Of a DNA stretch of 64,000 nucleotides, positions 32,702 through 41,689 are shown one piece after another. The notes beneath the pieces are model-generated. The model was given only the letters and a program-made list of their open reading frames with translations, was not told the origin of the DNA and did not search any database. The position numbers were made by a program, and so were the translations under genes. The stretch's first letter is position 1; every line of letters begins with the position of its first letter. Source of the stretch: Syntrophaceae bacterium (GTDB lineage: Bacteria; Desulfobacterota; BSN033; UBA1163); NCBI GenBank assembly GCA_013388635.1, contig JACAEX010000043.1, forward strand, positions 1-64,000, in the 5' to 3' direction.

Positions 32702-33718
32702 CTAAATCTTTAGCACACCGTTATCCAGGACCACCTTCCCGTCAAAATAGACAGTCGCATCCTTGTACATCGCATCGATATGGTTCGGCGCCAGAATCTT
32801 CCCTCCGATGGCGAAGTTGCTTCCAATCCCTGCATGGCAGTTTCCCAGGCGGCCCAGATCCTCTAAGTTGGTCGCTGCGAGGCGGGCCTTGGGGTTGAGA
32901 CCGATCCCGAATTCAGCATAATTATAAGCCTTCTCGTCATTCAGGACCTCGAGAATCTGCCGGAGCTTGTTAGCGGCCATGCCTCCCTGTATATCGACCA
33001 CCTTGCCCTGTTTAACGATGAGCGTTACAGGATCGTAGAGCGTCACACCGACACTCATAATGCTCACATCGCTGATAATCTTTCCCTCCGCACTCCCTTC
33101 GACCGGAGAGATGTTGATCTCGCTGTCCGGGAATGCCGCAAACTGCCCCGGTTTCTTAAACAGACCGGTCTCATACTGAACCGGCCTGCCCTTCACATAT
33201 CCCCGGATGTCTGTACCGAGCGGCGTTGTGATCCGGACCTCGCTCGACTGGGCGAGGGCTGCACCTAAGAGACGCCCCATCCTGTCGCACGCTTCGTAGT
33301 CGGCCTCGATCGCTCCAACGCAGAGGGCGTCCTCTGTCACCTCACACATCGTGCTTCCCCGTTTTCCTGCCTTGATCGCCTCCACCCTTGCCTTCGTATG
33401 GGTCTGGGACCAGGTGCTCGGCTGGAGAAAGACATCCGCCTCCCTGAACGCCGCCACCACTGGCTCTGGAAGCTGTGCTCCGTGAACCCCAACCGGCGGG
33501 ATCATCATGATGATGGGTGTGGCGCCGACCGCATAGGCTGCCGCTGCCAGTGCCTCTGCAATCCTGAGCTTGTTGGTGTCGGTGGAGATCAAGACGGTCT
33601 CACCCTCCTTCACATCTCCGCATTTCATGCATTTCATCGCCCCTTTCATCATCTGAATAGGGCTCGAAGCCCCGGGCGTATAATGCCAGTATGAAATTGG
33701 CCATTCTCTCGTGCTCAT
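32702..33718 (-). CDS. M29-like metalloprotein (aminopeptidase T / NicX-type)
   Basis: A 338-residue protein resembling thermophilic M29 aminopeptidases and the homologous 2,5-dihydroxypyridine dioxygenase NicX. The N-terminal part has a cysteine pair CMKCGDVKEGETVLI near 30. Putative metal ligands are glutamates in SPVEGSAEG and YAEFGIGLNP, and histidine/aspartate in NCHAGIG and NHIDAM; the HxD pair matches both families. Whether it cleaves peptides or ring amides cannot be decided. The start ATG follows GAAAGGAGGTCGCT. It is flanked on both sides by spacers of 170-260 bases, so it may be a single-gene unit. Confidence 0.75.
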   Translation of the reverse strand: MSTREWPISYWHYTPGASSPIQMMKGAMKCMKCGDVKEGETVLISTDTNKLRIAEALAAAAYAVGATPIIMMIPPVGVHGAQLPEPVVAAFREADVFLQPSTWSQTHTKARVEAIKAGKRGSTMCEVTEDALCVGAIEADYEACDRMGRLLGAALAQSSEVRITTPLGTDIRGYVKGRPVQYETGLFKKPGQFAAFPDSEINISPVEGSAEGKIISDVSIMSVGVTLYDPVTLIVKQGKVVDIQGGMAANKLRQILEVLNDEKAYNYAEFGIGLNPKARLAATNLEDLGRLGNCHAGIGSNFAIGGKILAPNHIDAMYKDATVYFDGKVVLDNGVLKI

Positions 33719-33889: not shown

Positions 33890-35848
33890 CTATACATTCC
33901 TTCCTGCCTCAAATCCTTCTCTTACCGCCTCTAAGATGCCTCTTGGCTTCACACAGTCCCCGACCTTCACAACCTTTATTCCCGCCCGGACCAGTTCATC
34001 ATAAAGCCCGTCGTTCGGTTCAGCGCCGACCGCAAAGACAAGCGTCCCGATCTGAACCCTGATCTTCTCACTTCCCTGTTTCAGTACTGCGAGCTCTCTC
34101 TCCATCCCAAGGAGCTCGGTTCCAGTATAAACCTCGACGCCCTTCTCTTTAAACCTCATATTGAAATAGGTCTTTGTATCCGCGTCTGCTCCTGCTGCAA
34201 TCTCCGGAAGGACTTCCACAAGGATCACCCTCATCCCTCTCTCACCAAGGTGATCAGCGGTCTCACAGCCGACAAGACCTGCTCCGAGCACCAGGCAAAC
34301 CCCTTCTGGCTCTTTCTCACCAGAGAGGATTTCCCACGCTGTCATCGTACGGATCTTCTCCACACCGGGGATATGTTGAGATCGGGGCTGAGCCCCTGTC
34401 GCCAATATCACACCATCAGGCCGACCTCTCTTAATAAAGGACCCCACAGCCTTTCTTCCCATCACCACCTTCACCTCTGTCCGCTTGAGCCGGTTGAGGA
34501 GAAATGTCTTGAACGCCTCGATCTCTTTCCTCCCCGGAGGAATCGAAGCCAAATTCAGTTGGCCTCCCAAATCTTTGCTCCTCTCTATAACCGAGACCCT
34601 GTGCCCTCTCTCCCAGGCCGCATGAGCAGCCTCCAAACCTGCTGGACCTGCTCCGACCACGAAGATCTTTTTCCCCCTAACCTCTGGCTCAGGAAAGGCC
34701 TCCTTTTCCCGGCCAAGCAGAGGATTGACCGAACACTGGATGTCCAGCTGTTCAAAGATCCGTTTGTAGCATCCTTCATTACAGGCAATGCAGGGTCTGA
34801 TCCAGTCCTCCTTACCCTCTGAGGCCTTCTGGGGAAGATAAGGATCGGCAAGAAGCGGTCGGCCCATGGCGACCAGGTCGGCTTTGCCTTGAACAATAAT
34901 CTCTTCTGCTAATGCAGGATGATTGATCCTCCCCACGGTGATGACCGGGATCCGAAGGGCCTGCTTCATATGAGCCGCCAGCGGGACGAGACATCCGTGT
35001 CCGGTCATCATCGGCAGTGTCCGCAATATCTTGTGGGGCTCGTTCAAGTCGCCCAACTTCTTTGCTCCAACCGAGCCAGCCGAAACCATGATCGCATCGA
35101 TTCCTGCCTCCTGGCTAAGAAGGGCAACCTGGGTCATCTCCTCCAAGCCCAATCCTCCCTCAATGAACTCGTCTCCGCTGACCTTGATGGTGAGCGGAAA
35201 ATCCTTTCCCAGCCGCTTCTTTATTCCATGAACGACCTCCAGAAGGAAACGACTTCGCCCTGAAAGATCTCCTCCGTATTCGTCACTTCTTCGATTGGAA
35301 AGGGGGGAGAGAAAAGAGGGAATGAGATATCCGTGTGCGCTGTGGATATCCACGCCGTCAAACCCGGCCTCCCTGGCTCGGATCGCTGCTTCAATGTGTG
35401 CTTCGATCAGATCTCTGACCTCTTCTCTTGTGAGAGACCGTGGGACCTCTGCCCCGGGGTAGGCTGGCAGATCGGAAGGAGCCACAGGCCGAAGTCCGGT
35501 CACCTTCGAATTCGCCCTTCCTCCGGCATGATGAATCTGGATGAAGATCTTAACATCGTTATTCAATCGATGAACCATGTCAGTCAACTGACGCAGCCTT
35601 TTGACATGTTCTTCAGAGACAAGGCCGAGCTGATTCCTGTAGCCCCTGCCCTCGGCCGTGAAGAATGTCCCTTCGACGACGATCAGGCCAACCCCTCCTT
35701 TTGCCCTCTCCACGTAGTAATGAATGAGTTTGTCCGTGGCGAGGCCCTCCTCCGTGGCGTAGTTCATCGTCATGGGAGACATGACCAGCCGGTTCTTGAG
35801 CATGAGACTTCCTAACTGACAGGGTTGAAACAGATTGGGATATTTCAT
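33890..35848 (-). CDS. 2,4-dienoyl-CoA reductase-like NADH:flavin oxidoreductase (FMN/[4Fe-4S]/FAD)
   Basis: A 652-residue complete ene-reductase. The FMN-binding TIM barrel covers 1-330 (NRLVMSPMTMNYATEEG, FIQIHHAGGRA, GVDIHSAHGYLIPSFLSP, GRPLLADPYLP). A [4Fe-4S] cysteine set CxxCxxxC...C (CIACNEGC and QCSVNP) lies near 335-355. The FAD domain begins VVGAGPAGLEAAHAA near 380 and the NAD domain VLGAGLVGCETADHL near 515. It would reduce a C=C bond conjugated to a carbonyl or thioester with NAD(P)H. ATG 35848 has GGAGGAG upstream and overlaps the stop of the upstream oxidoreductase gene (ATGA), linking it to the CooS-like cluster. Confidence 0.9.
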   Translation of the reverse strand: MKYPNLFQPCQLGSLMLKNRLVMSPMTMNYATEEGLATDKLIHYYVERAKGGVGLIVVEGTFFTAEGRGYRNQLGLVSEEHVKRLRQLTDMVHRLNNDVKIFIQIHHAGGRANSKVTGLRPVAPSDLPAYPGAEVPRSLTREEVRDLIEAHIEAAIRAREAGFDGVDIHSAHGYLIPSFLSPLSNRRSDEYGGDLSGRSRFLLEVVHGIKKRLGKDFPLTIKVSGDEFIEGGLGLEEMTQVALLSQEAGIDAIMVSAGSVGAKKLGDLNEPHKILRTLPMMTGHGCLVPLAAHMKQALRIPVITVGRINHPALAEEIIVQGKADLVAMGRPLLADPYLPQKASEGKEDWIRPCIACNEGCYKRIFEQLDIQCSVNPLLGREKEAFPEPEVRGKKIFVVGAGPAGLEAAHAAWERGHRVSVIERSKDLGGQLNLASIPPGRKEIEAFKTFLLNRLKRTEVKVVMGRKAVGSFIKRGRPDGVILATGAQPRSQHIPGVEKIRTMTAWEILSGEKEPEGVCLVLGAGLVGCETADHLGERGMRVILVEVLPEIAAGADADTKTYFNMRFKEKGVEVYTGTELLGMERELAVLKQGSEKIRVQIGTLVFAVGAEPNDGLYDELVRAGIKVVKVGDCVKPRGILEAVREGFEAGRNV

Positions 35849-37143
35849 AGGCTCCTCCAATTTCCTCCGGCCCTCTCAAAAAGAAATCCGTGATCGAAAC
35901 CGAGATGCGGGGGGAGATCATGTCGGAATGTCCGAGAAGAGAGAAGACGACCCCATTCATTCGGGGATAACTCAACCCCCCTCTTCATCAGACTCAGGAG
36001 AAAGCCAGCTCCAGAAACATCTCCGACCAAAATGAATCCGATCAAACTCCCTTCTCTGATCACCATCTTCCGGTAGGATTCACGGGTTTCATCAACTAAC
36101 CCATCGATGTCAGCCTGACCTTCGACATACGGATGGCCGGCAGCCATCACCTGGAGGCCAAAAAGAGAGATGGCGTTGAGATTGAAATTCTGAAGACACC
36201 TCTGATCTCCTCCGGCCATATTCGAACCAGCTACCCTTCCCTGCCTGGCCGCGGCAGACCAGGTGGCATGATTCACCCGTTCGGACGTGATCGGGTCAAT
36301 GGTCAGGGCCACGTCTCCGGCTGCATAGACGCCGGAAACGTTTGTCTCCATCCGCTCATCTACTAAGACCCCCTCTCGAAAATCAACTCCTGAGTTGGCG
36401 AGAAACTGGATGTTCGGCCTCACCCCCACAGCCTCGATCACCCTCTGGCAGGGAAATATACGTCCATCTCTCAACCGCACTCCTGAGACCCAGCCCTTCT
36501 GATTCAGAATCTCAACGACCTCCACATCTGTTTCGATCCCCACGCCTTCCTGTCGCAGCCTTTCCTCAACGAGCCGGGATGCCCTCAGATCGAAGATCCG
36601 GGCTGCTAATTTGCGTTCCTTCTCAAGCACCGTCACGCGAAGACCTCGCTCTTTGAGGTGGCATGCCAATTTCAGACCGATGAAACCTCCTCCAATGATC
36701 ACGACCTCCCTCAGATCCCGCTCTCCCTGGAAAATCATCTCCGCATCACGCCGATTTCGAAGCGAGGCCACTCCTCTCGACTCCTTCCCGGGAATGGGGA
36801 GAGAGATAGGAGAAGCGCCTGTGGCGATCAAGAGCCGTTCATACGAAATCTCATCCCCATCCGAGAGCTTCACTTTTCTCGCGACGCCATCGAGCGAAAC
36901 GACCTTTCTGCCCAACCAGAGGTCAATCCTTCTCATCTCAGCCCAGGAGGGGTCACGAAAGAGAAGCCCCTCTTCGGAGAGGTGGCCTGCTATCCAGTAG
37001 GTCAGCATCACAGGAGAAAGAGCTGGGTTTTCATCTTCCGAAACCATAGTAATGGTCCCTTCCGAATCCCGCGGCCGGATCGCCTCCGCAGCAAAGATGC
37101 CTGCAGGTCCGCTGCCGATAATCAGATATTCCAATCTTTTCAC
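35845..37143 (-). CDS. NAD(P)/FAD-dependent oxidoreductase (CODH-cluster FNOR type)
   Basis: A 432-residue flavoprotein of the pyridine-nucleotide disulfide oxidoreductase class II fold. The first FAD motif LIIGSGPAGIFAAEAI is at 7-22, the NAD motif VVIIGGGFIGLKLACHL at about 146-162, and GVYAAGDVAL closes the FAD site near 272. There is no CxxC redox pair. Similar enzymes sit beside cooF and cooS in many genomes and are thought to pass electrons between the CooF ferredoxin and NAD(P). The GTG start follows GGAGGAGATC. It overlaps the downstream ene-reductase by ATGA, and an out-of-frame continuation of the CooS-like gene ends exactly at its GTG. Confidence 0.87.
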   Translation of the reverse strand: MKRLEYLIIGSGPAGIFAAEAIRPRDSEGTITMVSEDENPALSPVMLTYWIAGHLSEEGLLFRDPSWAEMRRIDLWLGRKVVSLDGVARKVKLSDGDEISYERLLIATGASPISLPIPGKESRGVASLRNRRDAEMIFQGERDLREVVIIGGGFIGLKLACHLKERGLRVTVLEKERKLAARIFDLRASRLVEERLRQEGVGIETDVEVVEILNQKGWVSGVRLRDGRIFPCQRVIEAVGVRPNIQFLANSGVDFREGVLVDERMETNVSGVYAAGDVALTIDPITSERVNHATWSAAARQGRVAGSNMAGGDQRCLQNFNLNAISLFGLQVMAAGHPYVEGQADIDGLVDETRESYRKMVIREGSLIGFILVGDVSGAGFLLSLMKRGVELSPNEWGRLLSSRTFRHDLPPHLGFDHGFLFERAGGNWRSL

Positions 37144-37200
37144 TCGGAGATCTCCTCCAGGATCTGAAAGATGGCCCCGGCTGGGATCAGTTCCCTCCCT

Positions 37201-38235
37201 TCACGAAAGAAGATAGACGTTACCGAACCTCTTCCTTAAGGTCTCTGTGAAGAACTTCTCCACCCGCTCACTCCCGTGAATGGGAAGGCCTGGAGAGGAT
37301 AAGACATTGAATCCCAGTGCCAGCGCACCCAGGGTCCAGGTCGCCCGTGGAGATGAAATCAATGTTGTCGTCTTCATCCCGGCTACAGGAATGGACCATT
37401 TCTCGTATAGCCTTCGGCCAATCTCCAAAAGAAACCCAGCGCTCTTAATAGAAAGGGTTGGGACCTCGCCTTTGACCGATTCCTTTAACTTCTGCACCAC
37501 CCCGTCGATCCATTCTTTCGAACCATACCTCTCGTCCTGAACAGTGATGATCACCGGAGAAAGATCGGATGAAACTCCAGCTAAGGTATCAAGCGCTTCT
37601 ATTTGATCCGGGCCTTCTAAATCGGTCAAACCCTTCATATCCCTCTCGATCTCCTCGCAGACAATCCGGATGGTCGATATCTGAAGACATCTCCAGAGAA
37701 TCTCCTCAACATCTGAAGATTCCCTCGAACCCGAGTGGATCGAATCAATAAGGTATCCCATTAAGGGATCAGGAGGAAAAGCCTGTTGGTATAGAGAGGG
37801 AAAAATCCTTTCCGGGCAAAGATTCTTAAGAATGGATCGTTTCCGAGATACCGGCGAAAGGAGGTTTTCTGCCTCTATGGAGAAGTAACGACCCAGGGCC
37901 TTTCCCGTGGTCTTTGGGGAAAGAGCATACTTTTCAATGATCCTGCTCCGGAATCCAGAGGAGGCACGTCTTCTGGCATGGGTCTCTGGCCCGAGAGAGG
38001 AAAATCTTTCTATCGCCCTCCTCAGGGAGCCCAACCCCTCCAGGATCTCTCCCCCGACCAGCCTGAGAAGGTTTTTAGCGACGATCCGATCAGGACCCTC
38101 TCCGCACTGCCCTTTCTCCGAATCCTTCTCAAAAGGGCTGATGCGACATGGACCAAGGAGGCAGGAAGAGCAGCAGAGGCCGAGAAGGCCATATCCACAG
38201 GGTGGAACTCCCTCCCCCCTTTCACGTCGCCTCAT
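37201..38235 (-). CDS. CooS-like protein with D- and B-cluster cysteines but no C-cluster
   Basis: A 344-residue protein related to the nickel carbon-monoxide dehydrogenase CooS (normally about 630). The N-terminus CGYGLLGLCCSSCLLGPCRI has C13, C21, C22, C25, C30 and C44. The spacing 8-1-3-5-14 is identical to C39, C47, C48, C51, C56 and C70 of Carboxydothermus CooS-II, the D-cluster and B-cluster ligands. The following GPDRIVAKNLLRLV matches the next CooS helix. The C-terminus (GFNVLSSPGLPIHGSERVEKF) resembles the CooS C-terminal domain. Only three other cysteines (140, 183, 193) exist, so the six-ligand nickel-iron C-cluster cannot form. CO oxidation is therefore unlikely; electron wiring or scaffolding is an inference. 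The start overlaps the CooF-like stop by 14 bases. Confidence 0.78.
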   Translation of the reverse strand: MRRRERGEGVPPCGYGLLGLCCSSCLLGPCRISPFEKDSEKGQCGEGPDRIVAKNLLRLVGGEILEGLGSLRRAIERFSSLGPETHARRRASSGFRSRIIEKYALSPKTTGKALGRYFSIEAENLLSPVSRKRSILKNLCPERIFPSLYQQAFPPDPLMGYLIDSIHSGSRESSDVEEILWRCLQISTIRIVCEEIERDMKGLTDLEGPDQIEALDTLAGVSSDLSPVIITVQDERYGSKEWIDGVVQKLKESVKGEVPTLSIKSAGFLLEIGRRLYEKWSIPVAGMKTTTLISSPRATWTLGALALGFNVLSSPGLPIHGSERVEKFFTETLRKRFGNVYLLS

Positions 38236-38722
38236 GTGACTCCCCCATCATCGAGATCATCCTCTTTCTTTTCGCCTGGACAAAAGAAGTGATCTCCTGA
38301 AAGACAAGGGCCTCGGTCTGACAGGCCTCGACACAGGGAGGGATTTCTCTCTCAGGACAGAGATTACATTTACTGACACGCTCTTCCTTCTCATCATATC
38401 TCAGGGCATCATAAGGACAGACCAGGATACAGGATCCACATCCTACACAGCTTTCTCGCTGATGAAAGACTCCTGCCCCTCCTTCTGTTTGAACCAGACT
38501 GCCGGTGACACATGCCTCCACGCAGGGCGCAGAGACGCATTGCTCGCATTTCCAAACCCAGGGGGTCCCCTGGAAGAACGTTAGCCTCATCCTCTGGAGC
38601 GGTGCCTTGTCGTGAGGGATCTCTCGAGGATTCGAAACCCTGAGAGACTCCATCTCACAGGCCAGGACACAGGATTGGCATAACATGCATCGTTCAGGAC
38701 GAAAAAAAATCTTCCGCCTCAT
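38222..38722 (-). CDS. CooF-like four-cluster ferredoxin
   Basis: A 166-residue polyferredoxin with 16 cysteines in four groups: C12-C15-C18-C22, C59-C62-C67-C71, C92-C95-C98-C102, and C119-C122-C130-C134. That gives four [4Fe-4S] clusters as in CooF/HycB/DmsB-type subunits. It would carry electrons between the CooS-like partner and the NAD/FAD oxidoreductase. The opening KIFFRPERCMLCQSC is typical of CooF. ATG 38722 (with AGGA 10 bases upstream) is chosen over a GTG at 38758 that lies at the edge of repeat copy B. It overlaps the CooS-like gene by 14 bases. Confidence 0.85.
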   Translation of the reverse strand: MRRKIFFRPERCMLCQSCVLACEMESLRVSNPREIPHDKAPLQRMRLTFFQGTPWVWKCEQCVSAPCVEACVTGSLVQTEGGAGVFHQRESCVGCGSCILVCPYDALRYDEKEERVSKCNLCPEREIPPCVEACQTEALVFQEITSFVQAKRKRMISMMGESHEAT

Positions 38723-38732
38723 AGTAAAGGGA

Positions 38733-38857
38733 TCCTCGAATAATTCCAAATTCGTCACTCCTGCCCCGTATTAAGTACGGGGTAAACTCCGGCAGGAGTC
38801 CAGTGGTTTCAACAGGTTCTGGATTCCGGCCTTCGCCGGAATGACATTTTTAGAGGT
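38733..38857. repeat. 125-bp MITE-like repeat, copy B
   Basis: Same length, orientation and layout as copy A at 2344-2468. The outer hairpin is ACTCCTGCC...GGCAGGAGT and the second hairpin ATTCCGGC-cttc-GCCGGAAT. Both differ from copy A by paired changes that keep the stems intact. The right terminus TTAGAGGT is conserved; the left terminus has drifted (TCCTCGAA). It lies between the CooF-like gene and the end of the aldehyde ferredoxin oxidoreductase gene. Confidence 0.85.
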
Positions 38858-38900: not shown

Positions 38901-40787
38901 TTACGGTAGCCCCAGAGAGGCAAGCTTCTCAGGAGTTGGGACCCCTGTCCTCTTATCCCAGCCCCTTGCCTCGTAATACTCATCCAGCAACCGATCATAA
39001 TCATCCCGATTCAGTTTGGACCCCTTGCCAGGACCGTCGGGCATCGGCTCCTCAAAGAAACGCGAAGGGGGATAGTCCGCTTCCCTGCCAAACCCTTCCC
39101 GGACATTGAAGAGCTTCTCCACATTGTAGACACGCTCTCCGCAGCGGAGAAGTTCTTCGCCCCTCATCGGAAGGCCGGTCGCAGCGACGAAGACCTCGTT
39201 CGCCAGGTCCAAACCCCGTTTGATCAGCATGGGGAAACTCCGCGATCGGTACCAGGCAAAAACACAGAGGCCCATCAGGTTCGCTATGGTGATCCAGTTT
39301 TCACTCCATGCGACCATCCTCCCCTTACCCTCCAGACCATGAAGTTCGCTGACAGCAGGAGTCCCGAAGAAGGCCGCCGATTCTTCTGGTTTAATGAACT
39401 CGTCGATGTAGGGAAAGCCACGGAGATGGCAGGAACCCCGGGTGGCCACAGCATAGGTGAGGGCTCGGGTGGGTAGGCTTCGCGGATCGCTCGCATCCAC
39501 CTCCAGCCCTTTGACGTGGATCGCATAATAATCGGCGTCCAATCGCTGACCCATGATCCTCGTCCCCTCAGCTAAGAGATCTCCGAAGCCCTTCCGAAAA
39601 GGGATCTTCTCGATGAAGTGAAGGAGGGCCTCTCCGTTTCCGAAGACAAGCTCCGCGCCATCCACCTGATCCTTTGTGAGCCTCCCACGCTCATAGAGCT
39701 CCATGGCCATGGCAATGGTGGAACCAGCTGTCTGTTCGTCGATGCCAAATTCATCGCAGAGAAAGTGCGCGCGGAGGATCACGGCTGGATCAGTGACGTA
39801 GGTCTTTGCTCCCAGGGCATTGATCGTGTCGTACTCCGGGCCTTTCGTATAAGTCGGCCCAAGAGGGCCTTCCTGGATAACCGAATACCTCCGGCACCGA
39901 ACCATGCAGCCCATACATCCCATCACCTTCAATAAGAACTTTTCTCTGAAGGCCTCGCCGCTGATCTTCTCCCACTGATCGATCGTAGCCCTCTGAAAGT
40001 TCTTCGCACCCCAGATGCCCAGTTTCTGGCGATGGGCCACTAAGTTCGGGGTCCCCAATCGGCGCAATCCTTCGGTCCAGACCTCTCCTGCAAGGGTCTC
40101 CCGATAGGCATCGATCGCCTCTTTGAATCGCCTGGGATCGGCGATCTTAACATCTTGGGTTCCACGGACCACCACGGCCTTCAGCAGTTTCGAACCCAGT
40201 ACCGCCCCGACTCCCGTCCTTCCTCCGACGCTCTCTTCATCCGTGACGACGCAGGCGTATCGAACCAGATTCTCTCCTCCGGGACCGATGGCCAGAATAT
40301 GGATGTCGTCATCTCCGATCTCCTCCTTCAGCCTATCGTTCGTCTCGTGGATCCTCAGCCCCCAGAGATGCTTGGCCGGCCGGAGCTCGGCCTTTCCGTC
40401 CTCGACCCAGAGATAGACGGGCATGGCCGATCTTCCCCGAAGAACGATCGCATCGAAGCCGGCATACTTAAGCTCCGGTGCCCAGTAACCTCCAGAGCTG
40501 GCGTCTCCGATCGCTCCGGTGAGCGGAGATTTCGAGGCCACGATCAGACGACTGGCCGAAGGTGCGGGTGTGCCATTTAAGGGCCCTGCCGCCAGGATGA
40601 CCAGATTATCAGGAGAGAGCGGATCTATCCCTGACTTCAATCCGTCAAATAAGATTCTCGAGCTGAACCCTCTTCCGCCGATATAGTTCAGGGCGAAGTC
40701 TCGATCCAGTGGCCCCTTTTGAACCGAGCCATCGGTCAGGTCCACATATAGAATTTGTCCGGCATACCCTCCAGCAAAGACGCCCAT
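38901..40787 (-). CDS. aor: tungsten-type aldehyde ferredoxin oxidoreductase
   Basis: A 628-residue AOR-family enzyme that oxidises aldehydes to acids (or runs in reverse) using a bis-pterin tungsten or molybdenum cofactor and ferredoxin. The N-terminal pterin domain has GQILYVDLTDGS, YIGGRGFSSRILF and APSASRLIVASKSPLTG. The [4Fe-4S] ligands are CxxCxxxC in MGCMGCMVRCRR near 295 and a distal cysteine in NLMGLCVF near 510. GLEVDASDPRSLPTRALTYA is the second pterin-site signature. ATG 40787 with GAGGGG upstream is preferred over a GTG six codons earlier. It is the third gene of an operon with a MoaD-like protein and a ferredoxin. Confidence 0.93.
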   Translation of the reverse strand: MGVFAGGYAGQILYVDLTDGSVQKGPLDRDFALNYIGGRGFSSRILFDGLKSGIDPLSPDNLVILAAGPLNGTPAPSASRLIVASKSPLTGAIGDASSGGYWAPELKYAGFDAIVLRGRSAMPVYLWVEDGKAELRPAKHLWGLRIHETNDRLKEEIGDDDIHILAIGPGGENLVRYACVVTDEESVGGRTGVGAVLGSKLLKAVVVRGTQDVKIADPRRFKEAIDAYRETLAGEVWTEGLRRLGTPNLVAHRQKLGIWGAKNFQRATIDQWEKISGEAFREKFLLKVMGCMGCMVRCRRYSVIQEGPLGPTYTKGPEYDTINALGAKTYVTDPAVILRAHFLCDEFGIDEQTAGSTIAMAMELYERGRLTKDQVDGAELVFGNGEALLHFIEKIPFRKGFGDLLAEGTRIMGQRLDADYYAIHVKGLEVDASDPRSLPTRALTYAVATRGSCHLRGFPYIDEFIKPEESAAFFGTPAVSELHGLEGKGRMVAWSENWITIANLMGLCVFAWYRSRSFPMLIKRGLDLANEVFVAATGLPMRGEELLRCGERVYNVEKLFNVREGFGREADYPPSRFFEEPMPDGPGKGSKLNRDDYDRLLDEYYEARGWDKRTGVPTPEKLASLGLP

Positions 40788-40808
40788 CTCAGCCCCTCTT
40801 ATCACAGA

Positions 40809-41300
40809 TCACTCATTGCCAGCTGTCCCGAGGAATTTTGCAAACTGTTTCATCCGGTGCGAGGCCAGTTGACCGCCATCGGTCAGCTTCAAGACCTTGG
40901 CCGGACAGTAGGCAACACATTGCGGATCCCCGCCACAGAGATCACACTTGGATGCCACCCCATCCACCGGGTCCAGGATCACCGCTCCTGCCGGGCAGGC
41001 ATTGACGCACATCGCACAACCGATACAGAGGTCTTTGTTGACCAGAACCATGCCGTCCGTCTCTTTCCGGTAAAGGGCCCCGGTAGGACAGATCTTCATA
41101 CATGGCGCATCCTGACAATTGAGGCAGGTCACAGGAATATCCTCTCCCTTGCCCATCACCATCACCCTGATCCGGCTTCGCCTCGGGTTGCCAACCTGAT
41201 GGTGGTGAAACGCACAGATCAGCTCGCACAGCCGACAACGGCTGCAGATCTTTTCTGGATCCCTTCGATCTTCGAAATAGCCAATCCTTTCTTTGGCCAT
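40809..41300 (-). CDS. four-cluster ferredoxin partner of the aldehyde oxidoreductase
   Basis: A 163-residue polyferredoxin with 16 cysteines: CSRCRLCELIC near 19, CLNCQDAPCMKICP near 59, CIGCAMCVNACP near 92 and CDLCGGDPQCVAYCP near 118. These would hold four [4Fe-4S] clusters. Polyferredoxins of this DmsB/HycB type accompany AOR in many anaerobes and are its likely electron acceptor. ATG 41300 after GGGGGGATGAG is preferred over a GTG at 41318. The gene overlaps or abuts the MoaD-like gene upstream and precedes aor by about 20 bases. Confidence 0.88.
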   Translation of the reverse strand: MAKERIGYFEDRRDPEKICSRCRLCELICAFHHHQVGNPRRSRIRVMVMGKGEDIPVTCLNCQDAPCMKICPTGALYRKETDGMVLVNKDLCIGCAMCVNACPAGAVILDPVDGVASKCDLCGGDPQCVAYCPAKVLKLTDGGQLASHRMKQFAKFLGTAGNE

Positions 41301-41301
41301 C

Positions 41302-41604
41302 TCATCCCCCCGACACAAAATATAACAGACTGACCCGATCGCCCTCCATCAGTCGAACCTCCTTCTGGCTGAGGGCGACTCCTGTGTAGATCTGATCATT
41401 GACCATGACCATCAATCCCGGCATCACGGACCCCTCTCCTTTCTCAAAAAGAAGATCCTTCATCCTCTCTCCATATTCGAGAGAAAGGCGCATACAGAGC
41501 CCTTGGACTGTCGCCTCCTCCTCTTTCAACTGGATCGTGAAAAGGGGAGAGGGACATAGGGATTGGAAGACAGGGGACAGCTCAACACGGACCGTGATAG
41601 ACAT
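41302..41604 (-). CDS. MoaD/ThiS-like ubiquitin-fold sulfur carrier of the AOR operon
   Basis: A 100-residue beta-grasp protein ending in the diglycine FVSGG that is adenylated and thiocarboxylated in MoaD/ThiS proteins. The body has ITVRVELSPVFQSL and VMVNDQIYTGVALSQKEV, followed by GDRVSLLYFVSGG, all typical of the fold. Such genes are often found with AOR-type enzymes and are thought to serve their pterin cofactor. ATG 41604, after GGAGAAG, removes a 15-residue upstream extension. It is the first gene of the AOR operon and is divergent from gntR. Confidence 0.85.
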   Translation of the reverse strand: MSITVRVELSPVFQSLCPSPLFTIQLKEEEATVQGLCMRLSLEYGERMKDLLFEKGEGSVMPGLMVMVNDQIYTGVALSQKEVRLMEGDRVSLLYFVSGG

Positions 41605-41689
41605 CAGACGAACTTCTCCGTCCGGAACCCCTTCGTTCCCCTTTCTCAATCCGATCCGGAGTCTGAGGCTTCGAGAAAAGTCTAACAGA

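Follow-up and report, generated by a model that had tools for sequence, protein, structure and literature searches.

What does a homologue of the Ni-CODH subunit CooS do in the operon of a tungsten aldehyde oxidoreductase (AOR), having kept the cysteines of the D and B clusters and lost every ligand of the catalytic C-cluster? The question is raised by the open reading frame 37201-38235, minus strand, in the stretch of 64,000 nucleotides from a Syntrophaceae bacterium (contig JACAEX010000043.1) that we call the window. The encoded protein, here named short CooS, has 344 amino acids as called, and its gene shows the following features:

37201..38235, minus strand: short CooS-like protein, consisting of a D/B-cluster module, a helical region and one small alpha/beta C-terminal domain, without C-cluster.
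38104..38199, minus strand: codons C13 to C44, with the D-cluster cysteines (13, 21) and the B-cluster cysteines (22, 25, 30, 44), the clusters being assigned by homology to CooS-II.
37204..37344, minus strand: CooS-like C-terminal segment, approximately residues 298-344, LGALALGF..SP.LPIHGS..V..FF.E (hhalign).
37141..37203, minus strand: probable frameshifted 3' end of short CooS; the other frame reads a tail like the extra residues of the homologues, and its stop overlaps the start of the next gene, FNOR.

In a phmmer search against PDB chains, residues 9-78 match CODHs and essentially nothing else convincing (best E 3.3e-15), and residues 10-61 align over equal lengths with residues 36-87 of the Carboxydothermus hydrogenoformans CooS-II (1su6). 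Since this offset of 26 is constant, cysteines 13, 21, 22, 25, 30 and 44 fall on C39, C47, C48, C51, C56 and C70 of CooS-II, which bears out the spacing that the original prediction had described; the four B-cluster cysteines and the type II D-cluster cysteines (C-X7-CC type) are all present, and the other cysteines are exactly the three that it had counted, at 140, 183 and 193. The Pfam Prismane match is confined to the N-terminal part, as is that of TIGR01702, whose 50.2 bits vs a cut-off of 478 set the protein apart from full-length CooS. At the opposite end, residues 205-344 taken as a profile match nine shorter CooS-like proteins by hhalign (P=88%, E=3e-6), and the C-terminus scores 33.6 vs 13 canonical CODHs, with 40 column shuffles reaching at most 20.2; this comparison consists of piecewise local alignments, which replaced a forced global hhalign that had set the C-terminus contiguously. 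Judging from these profiles, the CooS-like C-terminus, also claimed beforehand, is real. The middle part alone (60-206) gave no significant match in local hhalign. Two AlphaFold2 runs with two-sequence alignments reached pLDDT 46 and 40, and only the helical N-terminal part and the small alpha/beta C-terminal domain of these models are usable; Foldseek with the first model (pLDDT 46) returned no significant match, with CooS-V at rank 16.

The catalytic core is missing, as had been predicted. For the C-cluster ligands H261, C295, C333, C446, C476 and C526, no member of the short CooS family has a counterpart segment or shares in a conserved spare set of Cys or His, and the stretch in which canonical CODHs carry HGHNP, GxCCTG, xxQC, VGCNN, TGC and GSCVD has no equivalent. 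Likewise, there is no His near the site equivalent to the acid-base His 93 and no conserved Lys near that of Lys 563 (CooS-II numbering). With the C-cluster absent, short CooS is not the CO-oxidising catalytic subunit of a CooF-CooS-FNOR module. On contig C60, the host genome carries a separate, complete CODH of CdhA type together with CODH/ACS genes, so that any CODH activity that is needed can come from there. The length of 344 residues stands only for the gene as called: the homologues have about 20 more C-terminal residues, an in-frame TGA lies at 37201-37203 in the window copy, and the same frame then stays open into the FNOR gene, so that the window's gene is probably frameshifted by one base near 37201, at its 3' end, and its true product probably has about 365 amino acids.

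Homologues with the same deletion and the same neighbours, proposed earlier as a check, do exist, all in one type of operon: the short form occurs in seven genomes, spread over four families of the phylum, and the gene is complete in six. A search of 198 related genomes brought up five more copies, four of them complete and the fifth truncated at a contig end; G236 came from a sample of 395 genomes across the phylum, and a scan of genome contigs gave one more record, from the same genome as G014. Lengths as called range from 344 to 394 amino acids, the longer calls having uncertain N-terminal starts, and the typical form has about 345-370. The six D/B cysteines are invariant in 6/6 complete members, and so is C183 and no other cysteine; the G236 protein contains exactly these seven. 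This C183 (window 37687-37689) has no counterpart among the CODH cluster ligands. Invariant residues concentrate in 13-63 and 302-333, and the middle region diverges freely. The other genomes have the frame intact, with 32-41% identity from one family to another, and dN/dS amounts to 0.30-0.41 between the copies of the window and G014 and to 0.48-0.64 between those of G017 and G022, which are close to each other. Selection on short CooS is purifying but mild: dN/dS is around 0.3-0.4 in short CooS and the adjoining ferredoxin Fd2 vs 0.06-0.07 in AOR and its ferredoxin Fd1, and the short CooS value is also above that of FNOR.

Two other sets of CooS relatives came to light. A second CooS-like family of about 490-500 amino acids (L039 5327-6832, L040 6516-8003, L041 5984-7465, L042 5866-7353, L043 4611-6080) keeps the B-cluster cysteines (SCP.GCLQGPCR) and has lost the D-cluster cysteines and all C-cluster ligands; it lies mostly in a conserved group made of a ferredoxin, the CooS-like protein, an FNOR, an Fe-S protein of about 245 amino acids and a protein of about 215 amino acids that begins MTHSLHREG and has no Pfam match. 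In addition, relatives of 562-571 amino acids, perhaps of clade G, are found in L038 (5414-7102, window genome, contig C60), L044 (1023-2735) and L045 (5292-7007), adjoining ferredoxin, FNOR or transporter genes; the first two keep C-cluster-type cysteines and lack the acid-base His, and the third has lost most ligands.

On the minus strand, in an order in which most genes abut or overlap, short CooS stands between Fd2 and FNOR among these neighbours:

41302..41649, minus strand: MoaD/ThiS-like protein with a probable role in the synthesis of the pterin cofactor.
40809..41318, minus strand: Fd1, the AorA/WorS-like four-cluster subunit of AOR.
38901..40805, minus strand: AOR, the large subunit of a tungsten aldehyde oxidoreductase (AorB/WorL).
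38222..38758, minus strand: Fd2, a CooF-like four-cluster ferredoxin, with a 14-base overlap with the start of short CooS.
35845..37143, minus strand: FNOR, an AorC/PadH-like FAD-dependent NAD(P) oxidoreductase (best PDB match AorC, 8c0z_E).
33890..35860, minus strand: OYE/FadH-type flavo-Fe-S oxidoreductase (enoate reductase-like), the last gene of the conserved operon.

The same order is found in G014, G140 and G236, and G017, G019 and G022 agree as far as their contigs reach. Beyond the OYE gene, 32702-33718 has a weak Peptidase_M29 match and is operon-linked also in L033 (16089-17114) and L079 (12348-13364). The wider neighbourhood holds MmgE/PrpD, a TRAP transporter, GlcD-like and CCG-domain proteins and BKACE, a set that suggests the catabolism of an organic acid. 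The AORs of the short-CooS loci are 74-87% identical, no other AOR of the searched genomes exceeds 46%, and every AOR at 74-87% identity to that of the window adjoins a short CooS; in the 395 phylum genomes we found no AOR of this clade without short CooS and, except on cut contigs, no short CooS away from AOR. AOR paralogues are unusually many in some of these genomes, with 10 at E<=1e-60 in the window genome (G000) and 17 each in G017 and G018.

Fd1, AOR and FNOR match, in this order, the subunits AorA, AorB and AorC from Aromatoleum (PDB 8c0z), and an AOR large subunit, a small subunit with four [4Fe-4S] clusters and a FAD subunit in one operon are what characterises a Class III WOR (WorL, WorS, WorN); the relatives L113, L114 and L117 show Fd1-AOR-FNOR operons from which Fd2 and short CooS are absent. 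The five Fd2 proteins in the 395 phylum genomes are 52-100% identical to one another, the next ferredoxins reaching at most 41%, and an intact CooS lies beside seven of the 12 close outside relatives of Fd2 that were inspected (L139, L140, L141, L143, L144, L145, L146), molybdopterin oxidoreductase-like genes lying beside four of the 12. In four of those seven the genes run ferredoxin-CooS-FNOR, the FNOR being full-length in L141, L143 and L145 and reaching the contig end in L144, and gene coordinates reveal further cases of CooF beside CooS among the Fd2 relatives. The window locus, with its CooF-like ferredoxin, has the gene order of a CooF-CooS-FNOR (CO:NAD(P)) module. A 48-row tree separates Fd2 from every AOR ferredoxin and places it among those of CooF and formate dehydrogenase (93/85). 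What is supported is this wider CooF/M/FDH group; a narrower clade, in which Fd2 joins the CODH-linked ferredoxins and no others, was rejected (p 0.019). The FNOR tree leans in the same direction as that of Fd2, though not decisively: when a chimeric origin of FNOR was examined by the AU test, p against S+AorC was 0.024 with 23 rows and 0.123 with a wider sampling of 26 rows. The support from these trees is moderate. Given that Fd2-short CooS-FNOR repeats the CooF-CooS-FNOR order and that the relatives of Fd2 are mostly CooF beside an intact CooS, AOR appears to have been joined to a CO:NAD module, and the simplest reading of the origin is that a CooF-CooS-FNOR set joined an AorAB set, after which the CODH would have lost its catalytic core.

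The original prediction, an Fe-S protein that does not oxidise CO and may conduct electrons, is supported by the absent C-cluster ligands, the invariant D/B cysteines and the conserved redox-partner neighbours; it did not take in the make-up of the operon, a tungsten AOR plus a module like CooF-CooS-FNOR. CODH hands its electrons to CooF through the D cluster (PMC6344411), and in the AorABC structure a chain of [4Fe-4S] clusters links the tungsten site with FAD and NAD (PMC10413684). Since short CooS keeps only the electron exit of CODH, adjoins a CooF-like ferredoxin and FNOR, and is tied to one AOR clade, we are inclined, with reserve, to regard it as a subunit without catalysis of its own, serving as relay or adaptor within a tungsten aldehyde oxidoreductase:NAD(P) complex. 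The direct basis of this proposal is the sequence anatomy, the conserved operon, the co-inheritance with one AOR clade, the purifying selection and the kinship of Fd2 with CooF; the cluster occupancy, the dimer, the physical complex and the direction and substrate of the electron flow are inferred. The electrons of aldehyde oxidation would pass from the tungsten cofactor to the AOR cluster and Fd1, then to the B and D clusters of short CooS, possibly a dimer sharing its D cluster, and from there through the CooF-like Fd2 and the FAD of FNOR to NAD(P)+; as an alternative, the path might run in reverse for acid reduction. A more tentative extension takes the tungsten aldehyde:NAD(P) oxidoreductase to consist of five subunits, with an active-site-less CODH dimer that might act as the electron hub and connect two AOR/Fd1 arms, by way of its shared D cluster, to the CooF-like ferredoxin and FAD; the CODH scaffold would then have been reused for wiring and nothing else. 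Counting against a relay, AorABC needs no partners besides Fd1 and FNOR, so that in principle such an enzyme can do without a further relay, and the rate of evolution is higher in short CooS and Fd2 than in AOR and Fd1; the low pLDDT of the models, the Foldseek matches below significance and the differing AU results on the FNOR phylogeny weigh on the same side.

The freely diverging middle region next to preserved Fe-S and C-terminal motifs, with D/B and C-terminal elements the only survivors, would also suit a structural scaffold, that is, a CooS remnant that dimerises and holds Fd2 and FNOR to AOR with its clusters structural and off the electron path; we consider this rather unlikely, given that all six ligands, both D-cluster cysteines included, are strictly kept beside a CooF-like partner, which suggests electron transfer. 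That Fd2, short CooS and FNOR form an independent module merely sharing the operon, with electrons that come not from AOR but, for example, from the OYE protein or from some unknown reaction, is improbable: the three do resemble a self-contained CooF-CooS-FNOR set, the OYE gene is conserved downstream and the two rates of evolution differ, but the reciprocal association of short CooS with this AOR clade across the phylum sample speaks against it. We see little chance of a redox or ligand sensor or regulator derived from CooS; a non-catalytic protein with Fe-S binding by homology would fit, and a redox-sensing role of low-activity CODHs has been discussed (PMC13056359), but there is no DNA-binding or output domain, and the position is fixed between enzyme subunit genes and not adjoining the GntR-type regulator. 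A decaying, functionless CODH relic, as the raised dN/dS (0.30-0.64, above AOR, Fd1 and FNOR) and the 3' frameshift of the window copy might indicate, is hardly to be believed with the frame intact across divergent families and the six ligands and C-terminal motif invariant. That a full-length or split CooS has been made to look short by errors of assembly or annotation, for which only the small frameshift of the window copy speaks, can be practically dismissed, as independent assemblies of seven genomes have the same short form, the genes on both sides overlap or abut it, and no homologue with an intact catalytic domain was found in this locus, close relatives included.

If the relay/adaptor proposal is true, the ferredoxin-like electron exit of Ni-CODH is separable from the active site and reusable as wiring for another metalloenzyme, which bears on the evolution of CODH and its CooF/FNOR partners and offers a small natural D/B-cluster protein for studies of CODH electron transfer without the C-cluster. 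CODH surveys exclude proteins below 400 amino acids or without C-cluster residues (PMC8776680; PMC13240472; PMC13056359), filters that hide non-catalytic CODH paralogues and would have removed the short CooS family, and in the open-licence literature we found no description of short CooS or of any CODH-like protein in an AOR operon.

Compared with known systems, short CooS resembles the mini-CooS of Thermosinus carboxydivorans (clade G) in being a divergent, undersized CooS relative; the identity of the two, once raised as possible, is rejected on the published motif, mini-CooS being described with a complete metal-cluster motif (PMC8776680) and short CooS having no C-cluster residue at all. 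CODH-V/clade D and hybrid-cluster proteins likewise have the CODH fold without CO/CO2 activity, but they keep the catalytic-site cluster, an iron-oxo hybrid cluster in CODH-V (PMC13240472), in a part of the protein that is gone from short CooS. With CooS-type Ni-CODH (type II D cluster, C-X7-CC), short CooS shares the register of the six D/B cysteines, the C-terminal GS motif region and the neighbours, a CooF-like ferredoxin and FNOR in CooF-CooS-FNOR order; in contrast to the approximately 630 residues of that enzyme, it has about 345-370, lacks the C-cluster ligands and the acid-base His/Lys, and belongs to a tungsten AOR operon. Finally, with respect to AorABC, the Class III WOR of Aromatoleum aromaticum (8c0z), in a group whose 2026 classification makes no mention of CODH (PMC13328260), the window locus adds the Fd2 and short CooS genes between AOR and FNOR.
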